NCBI GenBank assembly: GCA_031257115.1
Contig: JAIRPF010000165.1
Span: 1 to 64,000, forward strand
Reading direction: 5' to 3'
Source of the DNA: Accumulibacter sp.
GTDB taxonomy: Bacteria > Pseudomonadota > Gammaproteobacteria > Burkholderiales > Rhodocyclaceae
DNA length: 64,000 bases
Made by a program: the position numbers and the translations under genes. Below, piece by piece: positions 594 through 20,432 of this stretch. The stretch's first letter is position 1. Each line of letters starts with the position of its first letter. The notes under the pieces were generated by a model, which did not search any database, was not told the origin of the DNA, and saw only the letters and a program-made list of their open reading frames with translations.

Positions 594-2876
594 TCATGGC
601 CGCTCCACCGCTTCTTCGAAGGGTTGCCGCGAGATGGCGTAGGCCCAGGTCCAGGAGTCGCCGCCGCCCGCGCCTTCGAGGCGCGTCCTTTCGAGCACCA
701 TCGCCGCGAAGCGGCCGGGGATCAGCGTCGGCGTCACGGCGTCGGGCAGCGGCGCGACGTTGATTACCCGCAGCGCGGTCACGTACAGGCCGTCGCGTGT
801 CCAGCTCGCGGCGACGCGCGCCTGCATTCCGTTGGCGAGCGCGAGCGGTTGCCGGTCGGCGATCGGCAGCGCGATGAGGCCGTCGGGCGGCGACGCCGTC
901 GGGTCGGATTCGCGCACGGCGGCGGCGGCCGAGCGCGCCAGCGCGGCAAGAATGGCGTCGCCGCCCGACGGTTCCGGAACCGCCGCCGGCGCGGAAACGG
1001 GCGCGGCGTTCCCGCCGCCGGAGAACGCCGGCACGATCGGCTTGTTCGGGAAAGCGCCGGTCAGCGCCTCGTAGCCCTGGGTTTTCTCGCGCGCCAGCGC
1101 GTCCGCCTCCTGCGGATTGTCCAGCACGCGCGGCGTGATCAGCAGCACGATCTGGCTGCGCGCGGCTTCGCGCACGTCGCGCTTGAACAGCGCGCCGAGC
1201 ACCGGGATGTCGCCCAGCACCGGAACCTTCTGGTCGCCGTATTGCGTGCTGTCGCGGATCATGCCGCCGATGGCCACGGTCATGCCGTCCTGCGCGTGCG
1301 CGGTCACTTGCAGCGCGGCGGTGTTGACCGTGTCGATGGGGAAATAGAAGACCTCGCCGTCGGCGGTGGTGATCGGGATCGTGGCGTCGCCGATCTTGAC
1401 CGTCGAACTGTCTTGGTCGATGGTCAGGCTGACCGAGCGGTCGCCGTTGATGCGCGGCAGGATCGACAGCGTCTGGCCGATGTCGCGCGTCTCGGTCTCC
1501 ACGGTGATCGTGGTGTTGGTCGCGCCCGTGGTGCCGGTCACGCTCTGCGACGAGGCGCCGACGGTGAGCACCCGCTCGTCGCCGATGAACAGCCGCGCCG
1601 GCTGGTTGTTGGCGGCCACCAGCATCGGCGAGGAGAGCACCTTCAGCTTGTTCTGCTCGGCGAGGAGCTGGAAGCGCAGCGAGAGATGGCGGCTCATCGC
1701 CTGCCAGACGAAAGTGGCGTCGCGCTCGGCGTCGAACAGGCCGCTGGAGATCGCGTTCCTGGGAAACGCGCGGCTCGCGCCGTCCACGCCGACGGTGGTC
1801 GCCGGGCCGCTCGACGCGCCGCCGCTCGACGCGCCGATGTCGAACACCGAGCGGAAACCGTCGTCGAGCGTCACTTCGAGGATTTTCATTTCCAGCAGCA
1901 CCTGGCGCGGCGGCCTGTCCATGTCGGCGACCAGCAGGCCGATCTGCCTCAGGGCCGTCTCGTCGCCGGTGCGCACCAGCAGCAGGTTGTTCAGCCGGTT
2001 GTAGGTGACGTGGATCGGCGGCCCCTGGCGCGCGGCGAGATCCTGGATTTCGGTGATGCTGACCGTCTCTCCGCCGCTGGCGTCCGGGCGGCCTTGCAGC
2101 TTGTCCATGAGCTTGTCCATGCCCAGCCGGGAAAGGTCGGAGGACGGATCGTAGGCCGCGCCCGCCGTCGATCCACCCGTCGACGCGCCGCCGCGCGCGC
2201 CGGAAGCCTGGCCGGTGAACGCCGCCGTGTCGGCGAGCGTGCCCAGCCCGCCGCCCGAAGCGCCGCCGCCGGAGCCGCCGGAGCCACGATAGCCGCCCCG
2301 CGACGACGACGAGCCGCCGCCCGAATTGCTCCGGCCGCCGGCGCTCACGCGCGCGCCGCTGCCGAGCGAGGTCGGCGGCATTTCCTCGACCGGCGCGGCC
2401 AGCTGCACGCGGCCGCCGAACAGCGCCCGGATGGCGTTGGCCGTCGCCACGACGTTGTGATGCCGGAGCGTGAAGACCCGCGTCTGCTCGTCGCGCACGA
2501 TCGCCAGGTCCTTCTGATACTCCTCGCCGCTCATGATGATGTAGGTTTTCGAGGCGGCGTCGTGGCGATACCAGACGCCGGCGGCGCGGCACAGGTTGCG
2601 GATCATGTCGTCGATGCTCGAATCGCGCAGGTAGAGCGAGACGATCTCCCCGGAAACCTTGCCGGTGACGACGATGTTGACCTTGCCGACCTGCGCGAGC
2701 AGGCGCACCGCGTCGTCGAGGCGCGCCTGGGTCAGCATGATGTCGCCGGGCGCTTCCCCCGCCGCCTGGCCGCGCCCGTCGCGCGCCGGCGCGGCCAGCG
2801 CCGAGGCGATCCAGGCGAGGAACAGGACGGCGAGCAGCAGGCGGCCCAGGATTCGCAGGCGGTCGCGCAGGCTCAT
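594..2876 (-). CDS. mshL: MSHA-type pilus secretin (MshL/GspD/PilQ family)
   Basis: 760 aa; STN-like N-terminal domain and secretin signature (GMTVAIGGMIRDSTQYGDQKVPVLGDIPVLGALFKRD...SQIVLLITPRVL); Gly/Ser-rich insert; followed upstream by pilus genes in same orientation. Confidence 0.85.
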   Translation of the reverse strand: MSLRDRLRILGRLLLAVLFLAWIASALAAPARDGRGQAAGEAPGDIMLTQARLDDAVRLLAQVGKVNIVVTGKVSGEIVSLYLRDSSIDDMIRNLCRAAGVWYRHDAASKTYIIMSGEEYQKDLAIVRDEQTRVFTLRHHNVVATANAIRALFGGRVQLAAPVEEMPPTSLGSGARVSAGGRSNSGGGSSSSRGGYRGSGGSGGGASGGGLGTLADTAAFTGQASGARGGASTGGSTAGAAYDPSSDLSRLGMDKLMDKLQGRPDASGGETVSITEIQDLAARQGPPIHVTYNRLNNLLLVRTGDETALRQIGLLVADMDRPPRQVLLEMKILEVTLDDGFRSVFDIGASSGGASSGPATTVGVDGASRAFPRNAISSGLFDAERDATFVWQAMSRHLSLRFQLLAEQNKLKVLSSPMLVAANNQPARLFIGDERVLTVGASSQSVTGTTGATNTTITVETETRDIGQTLSILPRINGDRSVSLTIDQDSSTVKIGDATIPITTADGEVFYFPIDTVNTAALQVTAHAQDGMTVAIGGMIRDSTQYGDQKVPVLGDIPVLGALFKRDVREAARSQIVLLITPRVLDNPQEADALAREKTQGYEALTGAFPNKPIVPAFSGGGNAAPVSAPAAVPEPSGGDAILAALARSAAAAVRESDPTASPPDGLIALPIADRQPLALANGMQARVAASWTRDGLYVTALRVINVAPLPDAVTPTLIPGRFAAMVLERTRLEGAGGGDSWTWAYAISRQPFEEAVERP

Positions 2877-3505
2877 CGCAGCACCACCTTCTTGCCTTGT
2901 GGATTGCTGGGATTCGACAGCGACACCGCGTCGGCCTTGATTTCGGCCTGGAAGGTGCCCAGATCGCCGAGATCGATCAATTCCTTGTCCATGATGGTGA
3001 TGAGATCCTTGTCGTTGATGAGCAGTTGCGCCAGCGCCTCCCCGTCCGGCGCGCGCGTTCGCAGCACCGCGCGCACGCGCACGCGCCGTTGCAGTTCGAG
3101 CACGCTGGCGCCCGGCAGCCCGGTGAAACGCGCGCCGCGCCCCTCGCGCAACTGGGGCGAGACCTCGAAAGGATCGGCCGTCAGTTCGAGCTGGCGCGGC
3201 GGACGGGTTGGCGGCGCTCCCGCGCGGCGATTCACCTCGGCGGCGTAACGCCCGATGGTCTCGATCTGACCGCGCAGCGGCGCGGGCAGGTCGATTTGCG
3301 CGTCGCGCGCGAGATCGGCGGCGGGATTCGGCGCCTGCGCCATCGCCGGGACGGAAAGGAGCAGGCCGGCGGAAACCAGGAAAAGGCGGGCCACGGAGAA
3401 CACGGAGGACGCGGAGAGTACGGAGAAAGGCAAAAAATCCTTTGCGAGGTTTTTCCCCGTGAACTCCGTGGTTGAAGTTCTTCGCTTTTCACCGTGCCCG
3501 ATCAT
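2873..3505 (-). CDS. Hypothetical pilus-associated protein (MshK-like position); start uncertain, N-terminal part of ORF crosses a repeat
   Basis: ORF overlaps secretin start by 4 nt (translational coupling); signal-peptide-like stretch LFLVSAGLLLSVPAMAQA. Confidence 0.5.
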   Translation of the reverse strand: MIGHGEKRRTSTTEFTGKNLAKDFLPFSVLSASSVFSVARLFLVSAGLLLSVPAMAQAPNPAADLARDAQIDLPAPLRGQIETIGRYAAEVNRRAGAPPTRPPRQLELTADPFEVSPQLREGRGARFTGLPGASVLELQRRVRVRAVLRTRAPDGEALAQLLINDKDLITIMDKELIDLGDLGTFQAEIKADAVSLSNPSNPQGKKVVLR

Positions 3506-4322: not shown

Positions 4323-5549
4323 TTATCCGCCTCCCGTCGATACGGCCAGAACGGCCTGGAAGAAGGCGATGTAGACGAAGGCGACCACGCCGCCGATGAT
4401 GAGGGTCAACGCCGGTTCGATCAGCGACGAGAGCAGCTTGATGCGCGCGTCGAGGTCTTTCTGGTAATGCGCGCCGAGCGCCTCCAGCACCGTTTCCATT
4501 TCGCCGCTGCGCTCGCCGATCGCGGCCATGTGCCGCGTGAGCGGCGGGATCGGGCGGCGTTCGAGGGCGGCGGCCAGCGTCTTGCCTTCGAGCACGCCGT
4601 CGGCGACGCGGGCGAAGGCCTGGGCGAGCGCCGCGTTGGACGTGACCTGGCCGACCGAGCCGAGCGCGTCGAGCACGGTCAGGCGGCTTTTGAGCAACAG
4701 GCCGAAAGTCCAGGAAATCTGCGCCATCGACGCGGCCATCAGCGTGCCGCCGGCGAGCGGGACGCGCAGCAGGACGCGGTCGGAAGCCAGGCGCACCCAC
4801 GGCACGCGCCGCGCGAGGACGAGCGCGAGCGCCCCGGTCAGCGCGGCCAGCAGCAGCGTCCCGCCCCAGGCGGTGAGCCAGTCGGCGGCGTCCATCATGA
4901 GCCGCGCCAGGCGCGGGATGGACTTGCCGCGCGCTTGCAGGAAGATGGAAAAGCGCGGAATCACCGTGGTGACGAGGAGCGTGATCACGCCGATGGCGGC
5001 CAGCAGGATGATCGTCGGGTAGGTGAGCGCCGTCAGCGCCTGCCGGCGCACGTCGGCGCGGCGCTCGGTGAGCAGCGCCAGGCGCTCGAAAACGGCGTCG
5101 AGTTCGCCGCTCGCCTCGCCCGCTTCGACCAGCTTGACGGCGATGCGCGGGAAGATCGCCGCTTCCCCGGCGAGCGCGGCCGAAAAGCTGCTGCCGGCGC
5201 TGATGCGCTCGGCGCAGCGATCCAGCGCGCGCGAGAGGCGCGGCCGCCGCGCGAGGCGCGATGAGGCTTCCAGCGCGGCGAGCAGGGTATGCCCGGCACG
5301 CAGCATCAATTGCATCTGGCGGTAGAACATTTGCAGGTCGCTGGCGCGCACCGACAGGCCCATGCGGAAGGCGTCGGCGAGCGCGCGCAGCGGCTCGCCG
5401 CGCGACTTCGCCGCGTCCACGCCGATTTCCAGGAGGCGCAGCCCCTGCGCCAGGATTTGCCGGCGCGCCTCGCGCTCGTCGGGCGCCTCGGCCGCGCCGC
5501 GCAGTTCACGCCCGTCGGCGGCGATCGCCAGGTAATGCCAGGTCGCCAT
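4323..5549 (-). CDS. Type II secretion/type IV pilus inner-membrane platform protein (GspF/PilC/MshG family)
   Basis: 408 aa; two GspF-type domains, e.g. DLQMFYRQMQLMLRAGHTLLAALEA, C-terminal LIEPALTLIIGGVVAFVYIAFFQAVLAV. Confidence 0.9.
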   Translation of the reverse strand: MATWHYLAIAADGRELRGAAEAPDEREARRQILAQGLRLLEIGVDAAKSRGEPLRALADAFRMGLSVRASDLQMFYRQMQLMLRAGHTLLAALEASSRLARRPRLSRALDRCAERISAGSSFSAALAGEAAIFPRIAVKLVEAGEASGELDAVFERLALLTERRADVRRQALTALTYPTIILLAAIGVITLLVTTVIPRFSIFLQARGKSIPRLARLMMDAADWLTAWGGTLLLAALTGALALVLARRVPWVRLASDRVLLRVPLAGGTLMAASMAQISWTFGLLLKSRLTVLDALGSVGQVTSNAALAQAFARVADGVLEGKTLAAALERRPIPPLTRHMAAIGERSGEMETVLEALGAHYQKDLDARIKLLSSLIEPALTLIIGGVVAFVYIAFFQAVLAVSTGGG

Positions 5550-7169
5550 CTAGCGATCCTCCCGCGCGAGCAGGCGCAGATAGGGCCGCGCCTCGTCGAG
5601 GCTGGTCTGCCCGGCCAGCGCCTTGGCGCGCGCGTCCTCGGCCAGACGCCAGTAATCGCGCGCCGCGCGCGCCAGATCGTGCTCGTTCGCCCCGGCGGCG
5701 ATCAGCGTGGTCAGCGCCGCGTCGATCCACAGCGCCTCGAAGAGGCCGATGCGCCCCCGGTAGCCGGTGCCCAGGCAGCGCGCGCAGCCGCGCGGATCGT
5801 GCACCTCGGCCTCGACGCCGTCGGCGAGACCGAGCAGTTCGCGCTCGGCGGGCGTGGGCGGGCGCGGGCGGCGGCAGTGTTCGCACAACATGCGCACCAG
5901 GCGCTGGGCGATCACGCCGTGCAGCGTCGCGCCGATCATGAAACGCTCGCAGCCGATGTCGGCCAGGCGGGTGATCGCGCTCGCCGAACTGTTGGTGTGC
6001 AGCGTCGAAAGCACCATGTGGCCGGTGGTCGCCGCCTTCAGGGCCACGTCGGCGGTGTCGATGTCGCGGATTTCGCCGACCAGGATGACGTCCGGATCGT
6101 GCCGCAGAAAGCTGCGCAAGGCCCCGGCGAAGCCCAGCTTGCCGCCGACCTGCACCTGCGTGACGCCGGGCACGATCTGCTCGATCGGATCCTCGGCGGT
6201 CAGGATGTTCAGGCTGCCGGCGTCGAGTTCGCGCAGCGCGCCGTAGAGCGTCGTGCTCTTGCCGCTGCCGGTCGGCCCGGTCACCAGCACGATGCCATGC
6301 GGATGCGCGAGCGCCTCGCGCAGGCGCGAAACCATCGCCGGCGGCATGCCGAGCGAATCGAGGCTCTGCCGCCCCGGATCGCTTTTCATCACGCGCAGCG
6401 TCAGGCGCTCGCCGAAACGGGCGGGAATCGAGGCGACGCGCATTTCCACCGGCTCGAAGCCTTCCCCCGGCGTGTAGTTGAGTCCGCCGTCCTGCGGCGC
6501 GCGCGATTCGGCGATGTCCATTCCGGAAAGCACCTTGACGCGCGAGATCAGCCCGTCGCCGAGCGCCCTGGGCAGCAGCCCGCCGCACGGCTGGAGGCGG
6601 CCGTCGACGCGCAGGCGCACGCGCACGCCGTCCTTGACGCTTTCGACGTGCAGGTCGGAAGCGCGGCGCAACAGCGCCTCGCGCACCAGGCGGTCGAACA
6701 GCGCCACCGGGTCTTCCGCGCCCGCCTCGCGCGCTTCGGCGGCGACGTACTGCGCGATGAGCGGCGCCAGCGCGTCCGGCTCGGCGACGGCGAGCGGCGT
6801 TCCGGCGCCGAGGACGCGCCGCGCCGTCTCGACGCCGGCGTGGTCGCCGGGATCGTTCACCGCCAGGTACAGCGCCCCGTCCTCGTCGCGCACCGGCGCC
6901 ATCGGATGACGCTTGAGGAGCGAGGGCGGCAGGCGGCCGATCAGCGCGGCGTCTACCGTCCAGCGATCGAGCCGCGCGTAGGGCAGCGCGTGCGCCTCGG
7001 CCAGCGCCAGATAAAAAGCGGTGCGCGGCAGCGCGAGTTCGCGCGACAGCGTATCGAGCAACGGCTGCCGCGTGACGCGCGCGTGCCCGCGCAGGCGATT
7101 GACCGTCTCGCGGTCGTAGAGACCGATCTGCATCCCGGCGTTGATGAGGGCGGCTTCGTTCAGGATCAT
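5550..7169 (-). CDS. Type IV pilus/T2SS assembly ATPase (GspE/PilB/MshE family)
   Basis: Walker A GPTGSGKST, Asp box TAEDPIE, Walker B HDPDVILVGEIRD, Zn-binding CEHC...CARC; start assigned at MILNEAALINAGMQIG. Confidence 0.92.
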   Translation of the reverse strand: MILNEAALINAGMQIGLYDRETVNRLRGHARVTRQPLLDTLSRELALPRTAFYLALAEAHALPYARLDRWTVDAALIGRLPPSLLKRHPMAPVRDEDGALYLAVNDPGDHAGVETARRVLGAGTPLAVAEPDALAPLIAQYVAAEAREAGAEDPVALFDRLVREALLRRASDLHVESVKDGVRVRLRVDGRLQPCGGLLPRALGDGLISRVKVLSGMDIAESRAPQDGGLNYTPGEGFEPVEMRVASIPARFGERLTLRVMKSDPGRQSLDSLGMPPAMVSRLREALAHPHGIVLVTGPTGSGKSTTLYGALRELDAGSLNILTAEDPIEQIVPGVTQVQVGGKLGFAGALRSFLRHDPDVILVGEIRDIDTADVALKAATTGHMVLSTLHTNSSASAITRLADIGCERFMIGATLHGVIAQRLVRMLCEHCRRPRPPTPAERELLGLADGVEAEVHDPRGCARCLGTGYRGRIGLFEALWIDAALTTLIAAGANEHDLARAARDYWRLAEDARAKALAGQTSLDEARPYLRLLAREDR

Positions 7170-7356
7170 TTCATGAACCCTGGAAAAAGCGGTCGATTCG
7201 CAGCCAGGCAAGGAACTGGATTCCCGCGTTCGCGGGAATGACGGGGATGCGCGGGCGTTCGATGCAAAAATGCTCTGATCACGGCGGAAGGCGAAAATAT
7301 TTTTACCCGCGACGTGCGCGGCGAACACGACGAAAAGCAAGAGTGAAACGCATTGA

Positions 7357-7904: not shown

Positions 7905-9014
7905 TCAGTCGTTTTTCTTTCCCTGCCGCAGCAGGCGATCGAAGTTGCCGGCTTCGCGGGCGAGATGCCGCGCGGCGTCGGCGTCGATCAGGCGATCGCG
8001 CGCGAGCGCGGCGAGCGCCTGATCGAAGGTCTGCATTCCGGTCTCGCGGCCGGATTCGATCGCCGAATAAATCTGCGCGGTGCGCCCGGAAGCGATCAGG
8101 TTGGCCACCGCCATGGTGACGCGCAGGATTTCGACCGCCGCGATGCGTCCGCCGCCGTCGGCGGACGGCAGGAGCTGCTGGGCGACGACGGCCTTGAGCA
8201 CCAGCGACAGGCGATGACGGACGACGGCCTGCTCGCCGCCGGGAAACGCGCCGATGAAGCGTTCGATCGCGCCGACGGCGTCCGCCGTGTGCAGGGTGGA
8301 AAGCACCAGATGGCCCGTCTCGGCGGCGGTGAGCGCCGCGCGCATGGTGTCGGTGTCGCGCAGTTCGCCGACGAGGATGACGTCGGGGTCTTCGCGCAGC
8401 GCCGAAATGATCGCGTCGGCGAAATCGGCGACGTCGGTGTGCAGTTCGCGGTGGGTAATCAGCGACTGCTTGGGCGCGTGGACGAATTCGACCGGGTCTT
8501 CGATCGTCAGGATGTGCGCCGGGGCGGTCGCGTTGATTTCGTTGACGATCGTCGCCAGCGTGGTGCTCTTGCCGCTGCCGGCGGCGCCGGTGACCAGCGC
8601 GAGGCCGGAGGGGAGGCGGGCGAGGTCGCGCAGGCCCTCCGGCAGGCGCAGTTCGGCGAAGGAATGGAAGCGCGAGGGCAGGTGCCGGGCGACCAGCGCC
8701 GGCTGGCCGAGCGCGCGGAAGACGTTGATGCGGAAACGCTCGCCGTCGGGCGAGGTGTGGCCGAGGTCGACCGTGCCGCGCCGCTCGAAGTCGGCGCGCT
8801 GCCCCGGCGCGAGCAGGGCGTCGAGCAGATCGCGCATGTCCTCGTCGCGCCAGGGTTCCTCGCTCATCGCGGCGAGACGCCCGTCGAGCCGCCAGGCCGG
8901 CGGCCGGCGGCAGGAGAGATGCAGGTCCGAGGCGCGATCGAGAACGACGCGCCGGAGGAAACCGTCGAAGCGCGCGGGCGCGGCGGGCGGCGTGTTCCGG
9001 GCCAGGGCGTGCAT
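7905..9014 (-). CDS. PilT/PilU-type twitching/retraction ATPase
   Basis: GAAGSGKSTTLATIV, TIEDPVEFVH, EDPDVILVGELRD, GHLVLSTLHTADAV. Confidence 0.88.
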   Translation of the reverse strand: MHALARNTPPAAPARFDGFLRRVVLDRASDLHLSCRRPPAWRLDGRLAAMSEEPWRDEDMRDLLDALLAPGQRADFERRGTVDLGHTSPDGERFRINVFRALGQPALVARHLPSRFHSFAELRLPEGLRDLARLPSGLALVTGAAGSGKSTTLATIVNEINATAPAHILTIEDPVEFVHAPKQSLITHRELHTDVADFADAIISALREDPDVILVGELRDTDTMRAALTAAETGHLVLSTLHTADAVGAIERFIGAFPGGEQAVVRHRLSLVLKAVVAQQLLPSADGGGRIAAVEILRVTMAVANLIASGRTAQIYSAIESGRETGMQTFDQALAALARDRLIDADAARHLAREAGNFDRLLRQGKKND

Positions 9015-9030
9015 GGCGTTTTCCCTTTTC

Positions 9031-9717
9031 CTAGATGGCGAAACGGATGGTGACGTCGAGCCACTGGCGGATCGGCGCGCGGGTTCGCGGGTCGCGCTCG
9101 ACGCCAACGCCGATGTCGCTCCACACGGGCGCGGCCACGTAGGGCAGGTCGGAGAGGCCGAACAGGAATTGCATCAGGCCGCGATAGCTCGCCCGCGCGC
9201 GCATCACCAGCAGGGGGCGCTGGAACGGGTTGCCGCTCGCCGCCTCCTGGATGAGCCGCGGCGTCGGCGCGCGATCCTTGTCCTCGGCGCGCGCGTAGAT
9301 GTGCTCGATGCCCAGCACCTCCATGTCGCCGGCCTCGGCCAGCGACGTGAGGCCGGTCTTGAGCGCGTTCATCGCCAGCGTGTCGTCGAGCGGCACGAAG
9401 GAATTCTTCAGCGCGGCGACGGCGGCGCGGTTTTCTTCCAGCTTCCGGCGCAGCGCGTCGCGCTCCTTCTCCGCGTCGCCCAGATTCTTGCCCGCGAAAG
9501 CGCCCGGCGCGCGCGGCGCGGCGCCCTGGCGGCTCCCCGACGCCTTCTCCCGCGCGCGCGCCTTTTCGAGGTTGTAGCCGATGCGGTCGATTTCCTTGTA
9601 CGAAAACGGAAAGACCGCGGCGAAATAGAACGTGGCGAGAAGAACGGCGGCGATCAGCACGTGCAGATTCTTCTCGCCGGATTTCCTGGCCGTCCAGGTT
9701 TTCCACGGAGTATTCAT
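9031..9717 (-). CDS. PilO/MshJ-like pilus alignment protein
   Basis: 228 aa; single N-terminal TM helix (LHVLIAAVLLATFYFAAVFPF) followed by coiled coil; position in cluster. Confidence 0.6.
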   Translation of the reverse strand: MNTPWKTWTARKSGEKNLHVLIAAVLLATFYFAAVFPFSYKEIDRIGYNLEKARAREKASGSRQGAAPRAPGAFAGKNLGDAEKERDALRRKLEENRAAVAALKNSFVPLDDTLAMNALKTGLTSLAEAGDMEVLGIEHIYARAEDKDRAPTPRLIQEAASGNPFQRPLLVMRARASYRGLMQFLFGLSDLPYVAAPVWSDIGVGVERDPRTRAPIRQWLDVTIRFAI

Positions 9718-10147
9718 GTCAGTCCTTGGGAAAAGCGGTTGGAGCGTTTCCGGTTCGAATGATGACGAATCCATTTCCTCGCCATTCCCGCGCGGATGGA
9801 AACCCGGTTCGCCGTTGTTCTTGCCGCTGTCCTTGCCCTTGCCTTTGCCGCTATCCTTGCCGGTTCCATCGCCGTCGTCATTCCCGCGAACGCGGGAATC
9901 CAGCGCGTACTTTCCGGCGCGTCGCGCCGCATCCTTTGAATTGGCGGCCCTCCGGCGGAAAACTTTTTCGTGTTCATGACATTCCCCGATCAATCGCAAC
10001 AGCCGTGGCGAAAAAGTTTTCTGGCCGTGGAAGCAAGGAAGCGAGGGAAGGCCCGCAAAAATCCCATGAAACGCCCGAATCGCCTCTCGTCACGGCTTTC
10101 CTCCGGTTTTCCGCCGCGCCCATCGCGGTCGATCGCCTTTTCCGCGG

Positions 10148-11956
10148 TCATTGCGGCTTCCTTTCCTGCGGCTGTTCGAGTTCGTCGGGTTCCTGCACCA
10201 GCCAGAAACCCACGCGATGGCCGCTCTTGCCGGCGCGTCCGTGTTCCTCGCGGATCTCGGTCTGCGCCACGCCGTAGGCGAGCGCGCGCGTCTGTTCGGC
10301 GACGCGGTTGACGAAGTTTTGCGCGCCGGTGTACGTGGGACTCCAGGCTTCGACGCGAATCGCCGTGGCGTCGGAAACGACGCGGCTGTTGCCGACCTTT
10401 TCGAGCACGGCGTCGTTGCCGATGGCCTGGCCCAGCGCCAGCATCAGGTCCGGCAGGTACTGGCGCATCGCGGCGATCGCTTCGAGTCGCGCGCGCTCGT
10501 TGATGAGCGGTTCGAGCGCCTGGCGCGAGGATTCGAGTTCGCGCGCCACCTGCTGCGCCTCGGCGTTGGCGCGGGAGACGAGCTGCGTGAGCTTCTGCCC
10601 ATCGCTCTCTTTCTTCGTCCGCTCCGCCAGCGTCTGCCGCAGGGCGTGCAGCCGGTAACGCTGGACGCCCTCGGTGGCGACGAGCGCCAGCGCGACGGCG
10701 AGGAGCGCGGCGACGCGCAGGATGTCGGGATTTTTCCAGGGCTTGCCGCGCAGTTCGCGCAGTTTCAGGCGCGGCAGGCGATGTTCCTGATTCTGGGCGG
10801 CGGCCTCGCGCAACAGCGCCGCCCACAGCGCGTCCCAAGCGGCGTCCGCGCCGGTGACGCGAACCGGGTGGCCGCTGGTCAGCTCGATGTCGCCGGCGGC
10901 CCGCCGCGCGGCGTCCTCGTCGGCGGCGTCGAGGCAGACGATCCCGATTTCAGCGCGCGCCTCGCCGCTCCAGTCCTCGATCAGCCGGCGCAGCCAGTCG
11001 CCTTGCAGCGGGCGCTCCATGCGCCCCTCGGCGCGCGCGGCGGCGATCAGGCCGCGCCGGCGGCGCACGGCGACGACCTCCTCGCAATGCAGTTCCAGGC
11101 AAAGGCGCTGGATGTCGCCGTGATCTCCCTTCTCTCCGTCCTCCCCGCTCTCTCCGCCCCCCGCGTCCTCGCTGCACAGCCAGGCGAGCGGCAATACCGC
11201 GTCGAGTTCGATGCCGCGCGCCGCCAGCGCGTCGCTCCATTGGCGGTACTGGCGTCCGGCCAGCGCGGCGGCCAGCCAGCACCGCTCGCCGTCGACGAGC
11301 CGCCCTTTCCAGGCGCTCATCGGCTCGCTGTCGAGATATTGCAGCGATTCCTGCAATTCCAGGCATTCGTTCAACGCGGCGCGGTCGATCAGCGAGAGTT
11401 CCAGCCCCGTTTCGCCGTAGCGCAGCGGCGCGCGCCGATCCTTGCGGCGCAGCGCCTCCTCGGCCGCCACGCGCTCGCGGTCGGCGCCGGAAAGGTAGCC
11501 GCGCGCGCAGAGCAGCGCGCCTATCGTCCACAAGCCGCCGAATTCGGCCAGCGCCGGCTCCATGTCGGAGCGCAAAAGCTCGCGCATCTGCGCGTCGGGG
11601 CGCGGCCTGTCCGGATCGAGCGGCAGGTCGACCACCGCCGGGCGCATCCGCCGCGCGGCCAGCGCGGCGCGGCGCGGCAGCTTGTGGCCGTCCCGCGCCA
11701 GTTGTCCGCGCAGCCGGTCGATCGTCTCGGCGAGCGCCGCGGCGAAATCGGCCTTGCGCGACTGTCCCCGCGCGAGGATAGAGACGCCCTGCCGGTCGCC
11801 TTGCGCGACGGCCGCGCGCAGGCCGCCGACGTCCCAGGCCAGCAGCAGCCACGCGCCGCTGGCGCGCGGCAGTCCCGGCGACTTGCCGGCGACAGGTTCC
11901 GCCGCCGGATTCCTTGCCGCTCCGCGGCGCGAAAAAATGGAAAAACGCGGCATCAT
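10148..11956 (-). CDS. PilM/PilN-like (MshI-type) pilus biogenesis protein, actin-like N-terminus plus TM/coiled-coil C-terminus
   Basis: 602 aa from MMPRFSIFSRR; TM at DILRVAALLAVALALVATEGVQ then coiled coil. Confidence 0.6.
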   Translation of the reverse strand: MMPRFSIFSRRGAARNPAAEPVAGKSPGLPRASGAWLLLAWDVGGLRAAVAQGDRQGVSILARGQSRKADFAAALAETIDRLRGQLARDGHKLPRRAALAARRMRPAVVDLPLDPDRPRPDAQMRELLRSDMEPALAEFGGLWTIGALLCARGYLSGADRERVAAEEALRRKDRRAPLRYGETGLELSLIDRAALNECLELQESLQYLDSEPMSAWKGRLVDGERCWLAAALAGRQYRQWSDALAARGIELDAVLPLAWLCSEDAGGGESGEDGEKGDHGDIQRLCLELHCEEVVAVRRRRGLIAAARAEGRMERPLQGDWLRRLIEDWSGEARAEIGIVCLDAADEDAARRAAGDIELTSGHPVRVTGADAAWDALWAALLREAAAQNQEHRLPRLKLRELRGKPWKNPDILRVAALLAVALALVATEGVQRYRLHALRQTLAERTKKESDGQKLTQLVSRANAEAQQVARELESSRQALEPLINERARLEAIAAMRQYLPDLMLALGQAIGNDAVLEKVGNSRVVSDATAIRVEAWSPTYTGAQNFVNRVAEQTRALAYGVAQTEIREEHGRAGKSGHRVGFWLVQEPDELEQPQERKPQ

Positions 11957-13068
11957 CGAATCTCCAGTCGAGCCTCCGGCAGCGCCATGCCGGCAACGGC
12001 GGTGATTTGGGTGACGACGGGGCGAGGGACCGGCGAGGTCGGCGACGCGGGCGGCGAGGTGTCGTCCCAGGTGCGAACTTTGTCGCCGGCGCTCGCCGTC
12101 CCGTCGGCGTTGATCCGCTCGACCAGCGCCAGCAAATGGCGGCCTTGCGGAATGCTGCTTTCTCCGCACTGCGTCGCCGGGAAAAAGAGGTCGACGCTGG
12201 CGGCGCACGGCGAGCCGTTGACCAAGCCGTCGCCGGTTCCGTCGAGGCAGGTCACGTTGATCGTGTTCGACGAAAACTGCTTCCAATGGCCCTTGCCGGG
12301 GCCATTGACGAAAACGAGCAGACTGGCCGAAAGATTGACGCTGATGGGCGTAATGTTGGGAGGAAAGTCTTTTCCGGGACGACTGACGACGCGCACCGTC
12401 CACCCGCCGATCGGCACGCGCCAGTCGCCGGGAAGGATCGCGGCGGCGACGTCGGCGGCGTAGCCTTCGCCGCCGGGCGCGTTGTCGGCGCCCAGGCTGC
12501 CGATCGTCAGATGATGCCTGGGCAAGGGCGGCGGCACGGTCTCGCCATCGGTGACGAGCCAGCCGAAATTCGAGCCGTCCTGTGTCCCGTCGCCGTTTTC
12601 GTTGCCCCAGCCGTCGCGGAAGCGCCCGTTGAAAGCCAGTCCGCCCAGATAATTGCCGCGATGGCCCTTGACGAGCAGCGCCGAGGCGTCGTCCAGCTCG
12701 ACCTGGCTCGCGCCGCCCTTGTTCTCGCACTTCGCGCCGGGTTGCGGCTCGAAGATCGGCTTCAGCGCCTCCTGTGCCTGCCATCCGCTGCCCGCCGAAA
12801 GCAGTTCCGCGATGTTCGCCGGCAGGCGTCCGTTGTCGGCGGCGAAACCGCCCAGCGCCGCCGCGTCCGCCGGGCCGAGACGGCCCAGGATCGCGCGCTC
12901 GATGGCTTGCAGGCGCGCCCGCGTGTCGTTGTAGCGCGCTTGCGAGCGGTCGTCCGCCGAGGTCTCGAAAACGAGCAGCGTCACCGTCGACAGGATGGCG
13001 ACGATCACCAGGAGTTCGATCAGCGTGAACCCCCTGGTGCGTGGCGTCCGGCGCGTCGTCGCGGTCAT
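11953..13068 (-). CDS. Type IV prepilin-like protein (prepilin N-terminal cleavage/methylation motif)
   Basis: MTATTRRTPRTRG^FTLIELLVIVAILSTVTLLVFE. Confidence 0.85.
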   Translation of the reverse strand: MTATTRRTPRTRGFTLIELLVIVAILSTVTLLVFETSADDRSQARYNDTRARLQAIERAILGRLGPADAAALGGFAADNGRLPANIAELLSAGSGWQAQEALKPIFEPQPGAKCENKGGASQVELDDASALLVKGHRGNYLGGLAFNGRFRDGWGNENGDGTQDGSNFGWLVTDGETVPPPLPRHHLTIGSLGADNAPGGEGYAADVAAAILPGDWRVPIGGWTVRVVSRPGKDFPPNITPISVNLSASLLVFVNGPGKGHWKQFSSNTINVTCLDGTGDGLVNGSPCAASVDLFFPATQCGESSIPQGRHLLALVERINADGTASAGDKVRTWDDTSPPASPTSPVPRPVVTQITAVAGMALPEARLEIR

Positions 13069-13072
13069 GGCG

Positions 13073-13600
13073 TCATTGGGCGAACGAGGTGACGACGAGC
13101 GCCGGCCCCCGCGAATGGTTGTAGACGTGGTAGGCATAGAATTGCAGGGACTGTCCGGGCTTGGCCTCCTGGGCGAGGCGCGAGGCCGCCGAATCCTCGA
13201 TGTACGCGGCCAGCGCCTTTTCGCCGCCGTAGTCGATGCCGATGCGCTGGCTGATCGCGCCGATGTCCTCGATGCCCATCATGGCGAGCGCCTTTTTCAG
13301 GTAATCGGTCTTTTGCGGCGCGGGCATCGCCGCGAGCACGGCGCGAAAGCGCACGGCGGCGGGCGCGAAGATGATGCGCTGGCCGGGAAGCTCGGTGCGC
13401 GCGCCGGCCACCAGCTTTCTCAGGTCGATCTCCCGGTAGGCCGCCGCCGGATCGGCCGCCACCCCGGCCACGGCGGGCGCGGACGGCTGCGCGGAGCCGG
13501 CGGCGGGCGGCAGAAAGCAGAAAACGGAAATCAGGAGACACGCGGCAAGGCGCGCTCCGCGCCTTTTCCGCCCGCCCGACTCTTCCCGTCCCGCGATCGC
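13073..13600 (-). CDS. Hypothetical secreted protein of the pilus cluster (5' end uncertain, no ATG in frame near signal peptide)
   Basis: Signal-like ARLAACLLISVFCFLPPAAGSAQ; C-terminus lies 4 nt upstream of the next prepilin start. Confidence 0.45.
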   Translation of the reverse strand, partial: AIAGREESGGRKRRGARLAACLLISVFCFLPPAAGSAQPSAPAVAGVAADPAAAYREIDLRKLVAGARTELPGQRIIFAPAAVRFRAVLAAMPAPQKTDYLKKALAMMGIEDIGAISQRIGIDYGGEKALAAYIEDSAASRLAQEAKPGQSLQFYAYHVYNHSRGPALVVTSFAQ

Positions 13601-13880
13601 GCGCGAACCATCTTTCTCAGGAGGAAGGCTTATCCGGGGCGCTTCGCGCGAGTCTGAACCACCGCGCGAAGCATCTTCCTCAAGAGTAAAGCCAGCCTCC
13701 CCGGCGCGAAGCGCCGCAAGCCAGGCCTCCCTCCCGAGGGAGGTGTCGCGCCGAAGGCGTGGCGGAAGGAGTTGGGCGGTTGAATCGTCAAACACGGATG
13801 AACAGGAAACCACCGTCCCCGCGAACGCGGAAATCCGGTTTGCCACCGCCCTCGCCCTCGCCGATTCCATCCCCATCGTC

Positions 13881-13998
13881 ATTCCCGCGAAAGCGGGAAT
13901 CCAGTTCCTTGCCTCCAGCCCAAAGGGCTGCAAATTCAAAAAAGGATGCGGCGCTTCGCGCCGGAAGGTAGGCGCTGGATTCCCGCTTTCGCGGGAAT
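13881..13998. repeat. Module bounded by inverted dRS3-like 20-bp palindromes
   Basis: ATTCCCGCGAAAGCGGGAAT at 13881 and ATTCCCGCTTTCGCGGGAAT at 13979. Confidence 0.8.
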
Positions 13999-14282
13999 GA
14001 CGGGAACGCGCGCGCGCCGGATTCCCGCGTTCGCGTGAATGGCGAGGAAAAGGAACGGTCGGAACGGTCATCGCCTGAATCTTTTCGGGCACATTCCCCG
14101 CCGCTTGCGGCGCGCCATCCGCGAATACCGTCTTGAGGAAGAGATCCCGCTTCCTGCGGCGGTGAGCTTCATTCAAAAACTCCCCAAAAAGACTTCCGCT
14201 TTTCGCCGCGCCCGCCGTGGTTGATCGCCTTTTCATGCTTTTCTCCGTGGTTTCCGTTTCTCGCCTCGCCCGATCGCCGTTT

Positions 14283-15212
14283 TCAGCCGCCGTCGAGGCA
14301 CAGTACGTGGTCATCGGCGCCGCCGCTGGTGTTGAGATTGGGGCGGCAAGGGTCGTCGGGATTGCGCCCGCCATACACGCCGTCCTTGCCGAGATAGACG
14401 ACGCGCGGATGGTCGCCGTTGGCGAGGCCGAACAGCAGGAAGGGGCGGGCGTGCCGTTCCAGTTCGTGTACGTCGGCGCGGTAGCCGGTTTCCCAGCGCG
14501 CGGCGGCGCGCCAGCCGAACATGCAGCCGCCGCTGGTCGCTCCCTGGCCGGAGCAGGCCGCGCCGGCCGCCCCGGCGGCGCGGTAGCGCGGGCCGGTTCC
14601 GTAGGCCGGAACGTCGCGGATCTTGACGCCGATGAGCGGATCGCCAAAACCGTCCGGGCCGTCCGTCACCACGGTCTCGCCATCCGAGCCGATGGTGTCG
14701 ACGGTGCGGGAATTCAGCGCGTCGCCGTGGTCGACCCACAGACGCAGGTTGCGGTCGAGATAAGGGCCGCGCCAGCCGCGCCCGGTTTCCGGGTTCCACT
14801 TTTGCAGATGGGCCAGCGGATGCTTGGCGCACAGGATCGGCGCGCCGAACAGCAGCGCCAGATTGGCCGGCGAGGCGAACCAGGCGTTGCGGTCGCCGTC
14901 GGGCAGATGCGCGGCCCAGGAACGCAGGATGCCGTCGGCGGCCGTGCATTGCGCCTCGACCTGCGCCGTCGCCGCGAGGGCGAACGGCCCCTGTCCGGGA
15001 TAGAAACCCGTGTCGGCCCTGAAGCGGCGCACGGCGTCGGCGACGCGGCGCAGGTCGGCGAGGGCGATGTCGTCCTCGGCGGCCTCCTGTACGCCGTTGT
15101 ACGCTCCCCAGGCGGTGAAGGCGAGCGCGGCGAGGATGCCGCACACGACGAGCAGCTCGATGAGGGTGAAGCCCCGTGGCCGCGCAAGGCGCGGGGAAAA
15201 GCGGTTCCCAAT
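14283..15212 (-). CDS. Type IV prepilin-like protein; start uncertain (possible ATT or upstream ATG)
   Basis: RPRG^FTLIELLVVCGILAALAFTAWGAYN. Confidence 0.75.
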   Translation of the reverse strand: MGNRFSPRLARPRGFTLIELLVVCGILAALAFTAWGAYNGVQEAAEDDIALADLRRVADAVRRFRADTGFYPGQGPFALAATAQVEAQCTAADGILRSWAAHLPDGDRNAWFASPANLALLFGAPILCAKHPLAHLQKWNPETGRGWRGPYLDRNLRLWVDHGDALNSRTVDTIGSDGETVVTDGPDGFGDPLIGVKIRDVPAYGTGPRYRAAGAAGAACSGQGATSGGCMFGWRAAARWETGYRADVHELERHARPFLLFGLANGDHPRVVYLGKDGVYGGRNPDDPCRPNLNTSGGADDHVLCLDGG

Positions 15213-15471
15213 CGCGGCGGGTGGGGTGGGGGCGGCGGCACCCCCGGGCGAACAAGGGAGAGAGAAAGAAAGAAGGAATCCCGCCGTTCCTTGTTTCTTC
15301 CCCCGCCTTTCCGAAAAAATATTCGCCGCGCCCATCGTATCCGCCGTGCTTGAAACCGCCTTCTCCGCGCCTTTCGCCATGTCGCCGCGGTCGGAGCGTT
15401 TTTGAATCAATCGCCCGCGGATTCCCGTCATTCCCGCGCGGGCGGGAATCCATCGCCGACACATTTCCGTC

Positions 15472-15679
15472 ATCCCCGCGAAAGCGGGAATCCAGTTTGT
15501 TACCTCTGGCCCGACGGGCCGCGAATCCAAAATCGGATCGCGTGTATCCCGTACGCTTCGTTCGCTTTTTTGCGGGCGGGACGCCCGCGCTCCATTCAAA
15601 ACCTCCCTCACGAGAAAGGCTGATTCCTGCGGCGCTTCGCGCCGGAAGGCGCGCGCTGGATTCCTGCTTTCGCGGGAAT
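15472..15679. repeat. 208-bp composite repeat, inverted relative to 3601..3808
   Basis: Same flanking palindromes and internal gcgggcgggacgcccgcgctcca / cctccct / gcgcttcgcgcc modules in reverse order. Confidence 0.85.
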
Positions 15680-15812
15680 GACGGGGAAATTTGACTGTCA
15701 TCATTTGAATCGAAAACGTCCCAAAGGTTTTTCTCCGCGCGCTCCGTGTTCTCCGTAATCAATCGCTTTTTTGCCTCTCGCCGCGCCCGCCGTGACCGAT
15801 CGCCTCATCGCT

Positions 15813-16499
15813 TCAATACCCGCCGGTCGCGCCGATCACGCCTTTTTTGCCGAGGCCGAGATAGGTGAAATTCCAGCTCACTTCGAATGGTTTCCACCAG
15901 GTGACGCCGTTCTCGGTGTCGACCAGGCGGTTGATGCCGCCTTCGGGCGGGGCGACGCGCACGGTGTAGCGGTACTTGCCCGCGCCGTCGAGCTTGACGT
16001 TGGCCCCGTAGTGCGGGCCGAACTTGCCGACGGCGGGAGTGAGCGGCCCTTCCAGCTTCCAGTTGGAACCGGGCTTCTCCAGCGTGTAGGAGACATTGAG
16101 ATAGGGAATCCAGGCGAACTTGGAATAGCCGTGCGGATTGGCCGACGCGGCCTTGATGTGCGCGAGGAAATAGGCGTCCGATTGCTCGCGCGGCCGGTTC
16201 TCGCGCCCGTTTTCGAGGATGATCGGCTGAATGTAGCCCCCCTCGATGGTCATCGATTCGCGCACGATGCGCTCGTTGCGTTTATTCGCCAGCTTGAACT
16301 CCGTGGCGTGGCAGGCGGCGGACGCCAGTAGACAGAGGGCGAGCGCCACGGGGAAAACTCTCTTTTCCCTCTCCCCTCGCGCGAAAAGGGTCGGGGGAGA
16401 GAGCGTGCGGGAGACGGAAGCCAAGAAATAAAAACCGCCTCCGCGCGCCGCTCCTCCCCCGAAAGAGCGCTCATCGAATTTCCACATTTCCTTTTTCAT
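15813..16499 (-). CDS. P19-like periplasmic iron-transport protein (Tp34/FtrA family), divergent; N-terminal boundary uncertain
   Basis: FAWIPYLNVSYTLEKPGSNWKLEGPLTPAVGKFGPHYGANVKLDGAGKYRYTVRVAPPEGGINRLVDTENGVTWWKPFEVSWNFTYLG resembles P19 core. Confidence 0.75.
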   Translation of the reverse strand: MKKEMWKFDERSFGGGAARGGGFYFLASVSRTLSPPTLFARGEREKRVFPVALALCLLASAACHATEFKLANKRNERIVRESMTIEGGYIQPIILENGRENRPREQSDAYFLAHIKAASANPHGYSKFAWIPYLNVSYTLEKPGSNWKLEGPLTPAVGKFGPHYGANVKLDGAGKYRYTVRVAPPEGGINRLVDTENGVTWWKPFEVSWNFTYLGLGKKGVIGATGGY

Positions 16500-16775: not shown

Positions 16776-18200
16776 CTACTCGATGGCAATCGGCCCGAAA
16801 ATCGTCACCCACCACGAGACGCCGGCGAGCACGCTGCCGATGACGCCGGGAATGAGCGGCAGCGGGCGTTCGGCGGGGGGCAGGCCCTGTTCGCCGAGGA
16901 TGCGCCAGCCGAGGTAGATGCTCCACACGAAGCTCACCGAGAACAGCGCGACCTTGGCGATGTCCGGCGCGTTCTCGCCGAACACGTCGAAGGGCGGGAA
17001 GAGCTTGGTGCCCAGGCCGATGACGAGCGATACGAGACACACCGGCGCGTACTGGTAGCCGAGTTCGAGAAAGCGCGAATAGAAAGTGCCGTCGGCTTTC
17101 GCCTCGCCCGCGAGAAAGGACGAGGCGGCGGTCGTCAGGGTGAGCACGACGCAGGTGCCGAGCGCCCAGGCGATCATGTAGCCCGATATGCAGAAGAAAT
17201 CGAGCCAGTTGTAGACTTCGCCGCGTTGCGGATGCGAACTCACGAGCCAGCCCGGCGCGGCCTCGCCGATCCACGTCCAGCCCAGACCCAGCGCCCATTC
17301 GCCGACGGCGAGCCGCAGCGTCTGGTACTGTTCGAGAAAGAGCCACAGAAAGCCGCCGAGCGCGGCGCCGATGCCGATGAAGAAGAACATCACCTCCATG
17401 ATGTTCGGATTATGCTGACGGATTTTTTCGATCTCGACGCCAGGCTTGCGGAATTCGAGTTTCAGTCCGGCGGTCGGCTTGTCCGGGTAGACGCACTTGA
17501 AGCACTCGATGCAGTGGCGCGATTCGTCCTTGCGGTTGATGTTTATCATCGTCGGGCAGACGCCGCGCTCGGTGTAGCGGGCGAGATTGACGACCTTGCG
17601 CTTGGGCGTGAACTGCACGATGCCCATGCGCGAGAAAAGACCGAGCAGCAGGCCGATCGGGCAGGTATGCCGGCACCAGGCGCGCTTGCCGTAATGCGCC
17701 TCGGCGTTGCCGTAGAGAAAGCCGAAAATGATCGCGCAGGCGAGCGTGCCGCCAAAGACGATGGCCATGCCCTCGCGGTGCTCGCGCACGCCGATGGTCT
17801 GGCCGAGCACGGTGATGATGAGAAAGCTGACGTGCGGCGTCCACTCGGAGCGCAGCCACCACGGGATCGACCGTTTCAGGCCGGACTTGCTGGCCCATTC
17901 GGACGCCGCGCCCATCGGGCACATCAGGCCGCACCAGCTGCGCCCGGTGAAGATCACGGAAAGCAGCACCAGCGGAAACCACAGGCCCCACATGATGTAG
18001 TTGGAGAAGAGCGCGAAATTGGTGAGCGGCGTATCGCCGAGGACCGCTTCGTCGGTCGCCAGCGGCAAGAAGAGCAGCGCCATGAAATAGACGAAAAAGG
18101 CGACGTGCAGGTAGCCCAGGCAAGGCCGGACGCGCACGAAGAACGCTTCGATGACGTTGGCGGCGCGCGTCGCGTCGATCATGGCGGAAAGCGGTCTCAT
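16776..18200 (-). CDS. 4Fe-4S polyferredoxin, NapH/CcoG/FtrD-like membrane protein
   Basis: CGLMCPMGAASEW, CRHTCPIG, CIECFKCVYP plus multiple TM helices; start at MRPLSAMIDATRAANVIEAFF. Confidence 0.8.
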   Translation of the reverse strand: MRPLSAMIDATRAANVIEAFFVRVRPCLGYLHVAFFVYFMALLFLPLATDEAVLGDTPLTNFALFSNYIMWGLWFPLVLLSVIFTGRSWCGLMCPMGAASEWASKSGLKRSIPWWLRSEWTPHVSFLIITVLGQTIGVREHREGMAIVFGGTLACAIIFGFLYGNAEAHYGKRAWCRHTCPIGLLLGLFSRMGIVQFTPKRKVVNLARYTERGVCPTMININRKDESRHCIECFKCVYPDKPTAGLKLEFRKPGVEIEKIRQHNPNIMEVMFFFIGIGAALGGFLWLFLEQYQTLRLAVGEWALGLGWTWIGEAAPGWLVSSHPQRGEVYNWLDFFCISGYMIAWALGTCVVLTLTTAASSFLAGEAKADGTFYSRFLELGYQYAPVCLVSLVIGLGTKLFPPFDVFGENAPDIAKVALFSVSFVWSIYLGWRILGEQGLPPAERPLPLIPGVIGSVLAGVSWWVTIFGPIAIE

Positions 18201-18293
18201 TGCTGTTTCATTGGCGGACTGGAATGTTTTCGATTTGTGCGATGACGGCTCCACTCCTCCGCCATTCCCGTCATTCCCGCCACTTTCCCCGTC

Positions 18294-18687
18294 ATTCCCG
18301 CGAAAGCGGGAATCCAGTGCGTCGCCTCCGGCCCGAAGGGCCGCGAATTCAGAATGGAAGCACGGGGGGGCCGCCCGCAAAAAGGCGGTCGATGCGGACA
18401 GAATGCCCACGCCCCGTTCAAAACCTCCCTCTTGAGGGAGGTGGCTCGCGGCGGAGCCGCGACTCGGAAGAAGCCGGGCGGTTGAATTTCAGGCGTGAAT
18501 GTTCGATGAACGAACTCGATTCCGGCAATCAGGGGAATGATGGTTTCCTGTTCATCCGTGTTTGAGGGTTCCACCGCCCTATTCCTTCCGCCACGCCCGC
18601 GGCGCGACACCTCCCTCAAGAGAGAGGCTTGGCTTGCGGCGTTTCGCGCCGGAAAGTACGTTCCCGGATTTCCGCTTTCGCGGGAAT
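18294..18687. repeat. Composite mosaic repeat bounded by dRS3-like palindromes
   Basis: ATTCCCGCGAAAGCGGGAAT at 18294, ATTTCCGCTTTCGCGGGAAT at 18668; internal cctccctcttgagggaggt palindrome. Confidence 0.75.
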
Positions 18688-18849
18688 GACGGGGGGAGCG
18701 GCGGAAATGACGGAAATCGAGGGGCATTGGATTAAAAATCGATTCGGAATTCGGAGAAGGTGGCGGGGCGCCGACCACGCGGCAGCCCCGCCGTGGCTCC
18801 GCCGGGGGGATTGGGATCCCCGGCGGGGCCGGTTGGCCGATTCGTCCGC

Positions 18850-19833
18850 TTACGTCGCGCGGACGTTGTCGAGTTCGCCGAGTTCCTCGTCCTTCGTGTC
18901 GCCCGCGCCATCGACGATGGCCTGGAAGGCCGCCTGGCCGTTGACGCCGACGCCGGAGACCTTGAACAGCACGATGAAACGGTTGTACTCGTCCGGCTCG
19001 ACGTGACGGTAGACCGGCACGTTGGAGAGCGCGCCGATGATGTCCGGGCGGAACAGCGTCGAATCCGGGCCGACGCCGAAGGCAACCAGACGGTCGTCCA
19101 CGGTCAGCGCGACGCCATCGGGCGTATCGCCGGTCTGGAAGGCGTTGACGCGATTCAGGTTGGCGCCGCCCTTCCAGAACATCAGCGCGTCGCCGCCGGC
19201 CTCGGTGATCGTCGCGTCGTCCGCAAAGCCGCAGCCATTGGCGTCGGGAATGCGGTAGATGTTCTGCGCGGTGACGTCGTTGGTCTTGTCGTTGATATAA
19301 GCCTGTTGCGTAGCCAGCGTATCGCCGCAGGGCGAGCCTGTGTCGACCACGCGCAGGCGCGTGATTCCGGCGCTTTTCAGGGCCTCGGCCTCGGCGGCGG
19401 TCAGCACCGCATTGCCACCAGCGGCACCGCCCTGCTCGATCGATCCCGTCAGGTCTCCCGACAGGATCGCCAAGGGATCGCCTTCGAGGTCCGCGGTGGT
19501 GTTTTGCAGCAGCGAATCCCAGCGATCCGGATAGCGGCCGCTGTTCAACACGCGGAATGTCTGGATGCCCTTGGAGAGTTCATCCATCATCGCCACGTGC
19601 GCGGCGGCGGACGCCTTGCGGTCGGTGTCCTGCAGCATGATCGTGGCGGTACCGGCGATCGCCGCGAGGATGGCGACGACGACGAGCAGTTCGAGCAGCG
19701 TGAAGCCGCCTTCCTTCCGGCGGATTTGCTCGAATTTGCGGCGCAGGCCGCGCCCCTTGACGGCGGAAGCGTCGATGACTTGCAGTTTCGACTTCAGTTC
19801 GGCCCGCGAAAGGGCCATGAGTTTGCTCAACAT
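18850..19833 (-). CDS. Type IV prepilin-like protein with long (about 43 aa) leader
   Basis: MLSKLMALSRAELKSKLQVIDASAVKGRGLRRKFEQIRRKEGG^FTLLELLVVVAILAAIAGTATIMLQ. Confidence 0.85.
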   Translation of the reverse strand: MLSKLMALSRAELKSKLQVIDASAVKGRGLRRKFEQIRRKEGGFTLLELLVVVAILAAIAGTATIMLQDTDRKASAAAHVAMMDELSKGIQTFRVLNSGRYPDRWDSLLQNTTADLEGDPLAILSGDLTGSIEQGGAAGGNAVLTAAEAEALKSAGITRLRVVDTGSPCGDTLATQQAYINDKTNDVTAQNIYRIPDANGCGFADDATITEAGGDALMFWKGGANLNRVNAFQTGDTPDGVALTVDDRLVAFGVGPDSTLFRPDIIGALSNVPVYRHVEPDEYNRFIVLFKVSGVGVNGQAAFQAIVDGAGDTKDEELGELDNVRAT

Positions 19834-20050: not shown

Positions 20051-20254
20051 TCAGGCCGCCGCGCAATCGACGACGAAACGGTACTGCTTGCCGCAGTGCA
20101 GGATGATCTCTTTCTGCCCCCGGCGAAGGATGCGCATCTCCACGCGGATTTCGGCGAAACCCGCATGATTGAACGCTTCCAGGTAGAGCGCGGTCAGCTT
20201 GTCCAGCACCTGACTATTGGCCCTGGCCACGCTTGCTTGATCGGCTGCTTCCAC
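20051..20254 (-). CDS. Small conserved-looking protein, 67 aa, weakly HemP-like C-terminus; GTG start, GGAGG SD
   Basis: RILRRGQKEIILHCGKQYRFVV; located directly downstream of Fur box/promoter. Confidence 0.6.
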   Translation of the reverse strand: MEAADQASVARANSQVLDKLTALYLEAFNHAGFAEIRVEMRILRRGQKEIILHCGKQYRFVVDCAAA

Positions 20255-20288
20255 CTCGATTTCCCTCCGATGAATCTGAACTATTGCG

Positions 20289-20307
20289 AATGATAATAGT
20301 TATCATT
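20289..20307. promoter_or_regulatory. Fur box, AATGATAATAGTTATCATT
   Basis: Perfect 8-bp inverted repeat AATGATAA-TAG-TTATCATT matching the GATAATGATAATCATTATC-type Fur consensus. Confidence 0.88.
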
Positions 20308-20318
20308 AAAAATTGCAA
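20290..20318 (-). promoter_or_regulatory. Sigma70-like promoter TTGCAA-N17-TATCAT overlapping the Fur box
   Basis: -35 at 20313..20318, -10 complement at 20290..20295, 17-nt spacer. Confidence 0.6.
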
Positions 20319-20432
20319 GAGTTTTTCCAATCGATGGAAAAAATTTTTTCAGCCCCGCCACGGCGTGAAACCGCCGCTGGTCGACGGTCAAAGGGTTTAC
20401 AAACGGCCGTTTTTCTTTTAAATTTCGCCCTC

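Follow-up and report, generated by a model that had tools for sequence, protein, structure and literature searches.

A P19-family protein predicted to lack the known copper/iron site, encoded in a pseudopilus–FTR1 locus of Accumulibacter

P19-family proteins have been studied as copper and iron proteins. Their copper ligands are presumably His42, Met88, His95 and His132, a set to which the titles of mutant structures point in part. The manganese (iron-analogue) site of P19 consists of Glu3, Glu44, Asp46, and Asp92 (PMC9174327). FetP interacts with FetM (PMC10783030), and for the FtrABCD system a coupling of Fe2+ oxidation to transport through an FTR1-type permease has been proposed (PMC11966278). 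Few earlier studies link type IV pili with iron acquisition, according to one report (PMC13170364), and a literature search for a pseudopilin–FTR1 locus found nothing relevant.

The locus described here lies in a 64,000-nucleotide stretch of DNA from Accumulibacter sp. (positions 1 to 64,000 of contig JAIRPF010000165.1), which is called the window below; the features are collected in Table 1. One of its genes encodes a P19 variant that is probably a derived, functional periplasmic paralogue without the known metal site, forming a two-gene cassette with a polyferredoxin inside a pseudopilus–FTR1 locus. Our preferred reading, to which we give a probability of about 0.45 from sequence comparison, is that the variant may be a P19 adaptor without a metal site, working in a pseudopilus–FTR1 apparatus for iron uptake that is induced by iron starvation.

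Table 1. Features of the pseudopilus locus in the window, in order of transcription.
Feature	Positions	Strand	Basis
Candidate Fur-box-like site, two overlapping 19-mers	20286..20310	.	15/19 and 14/19 to Fur consensus
Conserved small ORF, first gene after Fur-box-like site	20051..20266	-	kept in 8/8 loci
pilinC, large pseudopilin, second gene of locus	18850..19833	-	PF07963; kept in 8 loci
NapH/FtrD-type membrane polyferredoxin	16776..18245, true start inside range	-	PF12801, Cys alignment, tree
P19-family variant, predicted to lack the Cu/Fe site	15813..16499	-	PF10634 match, PDB search, alignments
pilinA, large pseudopilin downstream of P19 variant	14283..15173 from prepilin motif, leader start provisional	-	PF07963
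Conserved small periplasmic-looking protein without known family	13073..13540	-	conservation across loci
pilinB, large pseudopilin	11953..13137	-	PF07963
PilM/GspL-like protein	10148..11953	-	role by position only
PilN/O-like protein	9031..9759	-	role by position only
PilT-family ATPase	7905..9107, start provisional	-	TIGR01420 395.8 bits vs cut-off 319.1
GspE/PilB-type ATPase, MshEN domain	5550..7340, start provisional	-	
GspF/PilC-type inner-membrane platform protein	4323..5549	-	PF00482
Conserved protein between GspF and secretin genes, without family	2873..3505	-	
Secretin	594..2876	-	PF00263

The product of the variant gene is a genuine P19-family protein. The open reading frame has an ATG start and encodes 228 amino acids on the minus strand, with the mature part at about 15813-16304, a predicted signal peptide upstream and a provisional start. 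The PF10634 profile matched it at 121.7 bits (cut-off 21, E 4e-35) over positions 11-150 of 150, and the PDB matches obtained with phmmer were FetP, FtrA, P19, and spirochaete relatives and nothing else. The predicted structure is a weak model (pLDDT 53, from an alignment of two rows), and all 38 of its PDB matches with E <= 0.001 were P19, FetP, FtrA, HftA or Tp34 chains at a TM of about 0.6. The N-terminal part of the frame at 16310-16499 (MKKEMWKFDERSFGG...SPPTLFARGEREKR) has no counterpart in either of the two related genomes introduced below, G025 and G890; the gene may in fact start elsewhere, or its signal-peptide region may carry a small insertion. It is not a window-wide repeat, as it occurs in a single copy in the window.

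The metal-site residues were examined in an alignment of 65 canonical P19s with C. jejuni numbering. His42, Glu44, Asp46, Met88, Asp92, His95, and His132 are each found in all 65 canonical proteins, and the variant reads Y, L, H, A, F, H, and L at these positions. Six of the seven are thus replaced (His42→Tyr, Glu44→Leu, Asp46→His, Met88→Ala, Asp92→Phe, and His132→Leu), and the only one left is His95, within GPHYG. Taken by site, the copper set His42, Met88, His95, and His132 reads Y, A, H, L, and the acidic iron set Glu44, Asp46, and Asp92 reads L, H, F. According to their PDB titles, the crystallised site mutants FetP E46Q (5i0y), FetP M90I (5i0x), and FtrA H151A (8vv6) mark metal-site positions, and in the phmmer alignments FetP Glu46, FetP Met90, and FtrA His151 are matched by Leu, Ala, and Leu in the variant. 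The position of His48, a lysine in the variant, holds R, K, A or S in 14 of the 65 canonical proteins and is therefore no strict ligand. The first-pass annotation, made from the letters of the window, had called the P19 core clear, which the profile E-value and the PDB matches bear out; its suggestion that His and Met ligands are replaced by Leu, Tyr, and Lys holds, except that the lysine falls at the non-strict position and His95 is kept. By these alignments the variant is predicted to be unable to form the known copper/iron site. Loss of the site is not a genus-wide feature, as the canonical P19s found within this genus have retained every ligand. Ordinary P19 function through a degenerate but sufficient metal site would agree with the retained fold, the one copper ligand kept, and the presence of FTR1 and a polyferredoxin, but it is very unlikely in view of the loss of residues invariant in 65 of 65 canonical proteins.

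The best orthologue of the variant (L004) was found in the Accumulibacter MAG Kf353_bin148, on contig C362 of genome G025; it is 85% identical and carries the same replacements at all seven positions. A third variant, from a genome of another genus (G890), shares 58% identity and has Y, Q, H, A, Y, H, and H at these positions, so that His132 is kept there and absent from the other two. Among 399 family genomes searched with a profile of the variants, only these three scored 319–338 bits, the next match being at 137 bits. The tree unites the three, at 100/100 support, in a single clade whose stem measures 1.49 changes per column and which groups with canonical proteins of FTR1–polyferredoxin–P19 operons and with FetP. 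The partner polyferredoxins are monophyletic as well, but their stem is just 0.39; the P19 therefore changed fast and its partner did not. Genome G890 also encodes a canonical P19, which belongs to another locus with FTR1 and a polyferredoxin. Between the window protein and L004, dN/dS is 0.22, compared with 0.19 for the polyferredoxin and 0.29-0.52 for other genes of the cluster. These comparisons indicate that the variant is under purifying selection and has a single origin. That the gene is decaying or is an assembly artefact might be suspected from the existence of only three known copies and from a window assembly in 212 contigs, yet the same changes recur in different genomes, the frame is open in all three, and the low dN/dS contradicts a pseudogene, which makes this explanation scarcely credible.

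Two further groups of P19 proteins were observed in the same comparisons. A divergent branch with a stem of 1.81, consisting of L091 (G324), L092 (G407), and L079 (G709), has kept the metal residues; a polyferredoxin lies near the P19 in all three, and FTR1 is present in L091 and L092. Pairs of a polyferredoxin with a P19 bearing the canonical ligands occur in L066 (G554, 13376-15374) and L067 (G558, 10225-12275), in genomes where FTR1 was not detected, and may represent another way for P19 to work without FTR1.

The main rival to an adaptor role is a remodelled site, in which iron, another metal or an anionic ferric chelate would be bound through Tyr42, His46, Lys48, and His95 (with His132 in G890) and handed to FTR1. 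Tyr42 and His46 are invariant in the three variants and absent from all 65 canonical P19s, His95 is kept throughout, and the AHIKAASA stretch is identical in all three despite the 58% identity of the G890 protein. The variant could still bind metal, because His95 and the new His46 remain and G890 keeps His132. Against such a site, the acidic iron ligands and Met88 have given way to Leu/Gln, His, Phe/Tyr, and Ala, so that the former pocket has become more hydrophobic, and His132 is not kept in the window or G025. On balance we regard a remodelled site as less probable than an adaptor role.

The variant gene lies within a same-strand block. The order of the locus is small ORF, pseudopilins, PilM/N/T-like genes, GspE, GspF, secretin, outer-membrane protein, in some cases a di-haem protein, MoxR, DUF58, TgpA, and FTR1. 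A search keyed on the PilM-like protein recovered the system from 8 of 200 family genomes, with only one weak match in 300 genomes of the order outside the family. The small ORF after the Fur-box-like site encodes about 60-70 residues in all eight loci (window and L101-L107), with the pattern LYxEAFxHDGFAEIRVEMRILRRGQKEVILHCGKQYRFVVDY; it matched no family in Pfam or NCBIfam, and an assignment as HemP was rejected since PF10636 gave no match even at E 10. The small periplasmic-looking protein likewise matched no Pfam or NCBIfam family, and the structure prediction for pilinA reached a pLDDT of 30, too low for use. A dispersed element with GGATTCCCGCTTTCGCGGGAATGACGG-like palindromes is present in many copies between genes and at the contig end (for example, 1-80, 13743-14000, 15600-15700, and 18197-18778), and its translated frames read HSRESGNP or FPRKRESS.

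In seven of the seven loci whose contigs reach that far, the one in the window genome included, the last gene encodes an FTR1 permease with both RExxE motifs. FTR1 and the P19 variant lie about 20-24 kb apart. In G025 a single 25-kb contig carries the polyferredoxin, P19 variant, pseudopilus genes, secretin, outer-membrane protein, di-haem oxidoreductase, MoxR, DUF58, TgpA-like protein, and FTR1. Absence of FTR1 from the window genome was considered and rejected, as the permease was found on contig C175, which adjoins the window contig. This contig corresponds to the second half of the G025 gene order, and at its end it shares exactly 81 bases with the window at position 1, in the orientation expected; since a common repeat lies within these bases, the junction is argued better by synteny than by the overlap. 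Positions 2482-12446 of C175 (L083) encode cytochrome b561, FTR1, TgpA-like transglutaminase, DUF58, MoxR, di-haem oxidoreductase, and outer-membrane protein, with Pfam matches to DHOR, TgpA_N/Transglut_core, and FTR1. All three P19-bearing loci have the di-haem oxidoreductase, as does G974. A search of the window genome for an imelysin/EfeO partner gave none. The window genome also has a strong FeoB match, and the locus is therefore not its only iron route.

A match of 12-17 of 19 positions to the Fur consensus was found 570-720 bases before the prepilin motif of pilinC in all eight loci for which the upstream region was present. The summed score of 109 was reached in none of 1000 dinucleotide shuffles (mean 82.5) and none of 5000 AT-matched band draws, one locus without a matched band having been assigned a fixed value. 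From these matches the locus is apparently controlled by iron starvation. An NlpC/P60 peptidase gene (20313-20945, plus strand) diverges from the cluster, and it could also use the site because the intergenic region is common to both.

The polyferredoxin gene is directly upstream of the variant gene. All Cys motifs are kept and the protein is 57-59% identical to those of FTR1–polyferredoxin–P19 operons; its score with the NapH-type model is below the cut-off. The cassette of the two genes stands between pilinC and pilinA in the window and in G890, and precedes pilinA in G025, where the contig ends upstream. At six loci pilinA directly follows pilinC, without P19 or polyferredoxin, and the pair is therefore dispensable for the machine. 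In a tree of eight machine proteins the window, G025, G890, and G887 fall together, so that either one gain and one loss of the cassette or a gain after G887 split off would explain its distribution. Since the gene lies between pilinC and pilinA in the window and G890 and was found nowhere outside this kind of locus, the variant could also have left iron handling and now serve pseudopilus structure or assembly, for example as a periplasmic protein that partners pilinA or pilinC. We consider this improbable, as six genomes have the pilus genes without the variant, the retention of every Cys motif in the polyferredoxin argues for a redox role, and FTR1 and the Fur-box-like site belong to the locus.

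The first-pass annotation had further taken a ligand-poor P19 among pilus genes as a possible sign of changed function, and had proposed looking for a second, canonical P19 with FTR1 elsewhere in the genome. The loss stands, in three monophyletic proteins that are maintained by selection and occur only in this locus; a search of the window genome gave no second P19, G025 (88% complete) likewise showed only the variant, and FTR1 is present in the same locus. The cluster is not just a pilus cluster, given its FTR1, polyferredoxin, di-haem oxidoreductase, and Fur-box-like site, and because of these same components the protein probably still takes part in iron uptake, though in a changed role. Under iron shortage, iron or an iron-bearing substrate would reach the periplasm by way of the pseudopilus and secretin, the variant would serve as an adaptor that docks the membrane polyferredoxin to the FTR1 permease (or to the pseudopilus), and the iron redox work would fall to other components, among them the di-haem oxidoreductase and the polyferredoxin. 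Retention of a docking role is the economical reading for a locus that looks iron-regulated and has both its polyferredoxin and its FTR1 intact. The locus as a whole could tentatively be viewed as an undescribed iron-acquisition machine, in which an iron-starvation-induced, PilT-equipped pseudopilus would work with the secretin and FTR1, and P19 and polyferredoxin would form an optional redox module. A natural P19 that is selected without its metal site separates the role of the fold from that of the metal in FTR1-type uptake, and a conserved pseudopilus locus with its own FTR1 and a Fur-box-like head offers a testable tie of filament machines to iron uptake.

Compared with P19, FetP, and FtrA (PF10634; C. 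jejuni P19, E. coli F11 FetP, and FtrA of Brucella and Rubrivivax), the variant has the same fold, family, and signal peptide, and a polyferredoxin partner and FTR1 in the locus are also common to both. In contrast, the variant lacks the copper/iron ligands except His95 and is encoded inside a pseudopilus locus, and its FTR1 is distant rather than adjacent. The FtrABCD and FTR1–polyferredoxin–P19 operons likewise share a P19-family protein, an FtrD-type polyferredoxin with intact Cys motifs, and FTR1, whereas in the variant locus pilus genes separate FTR1 and the P19 is without ligands; no FtrB-type cupredoxin was found among the variant-locus genes scanned with Pfam. In Legionella PilA2 and the type IV pilins of Synechocystis (PMC13170364) a filament system is likewise tied to low-iron growth, although the accessible part of that report describes no dedicated filament locus with its own FTR1 and P19-family protein. 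With type II secretion and type IV pilus machines the locus has in common the secretin, the GspE/PilB and PilT ATPases, GspF/PilC, and prepilin motifs. Because the scores for GspD (181.9 vs. 351 bits), GspE (433 vs. 630), and GspF (284 vs. 424) are all below the curated equivalog cut-offs, it does not qualify as a canonical type II secretion system, and it differs from both kinds of machine in its pseudopilins of about 300-390 amino acids and in its linkage to FTR1, MoxR, DUF58, and TgpA.
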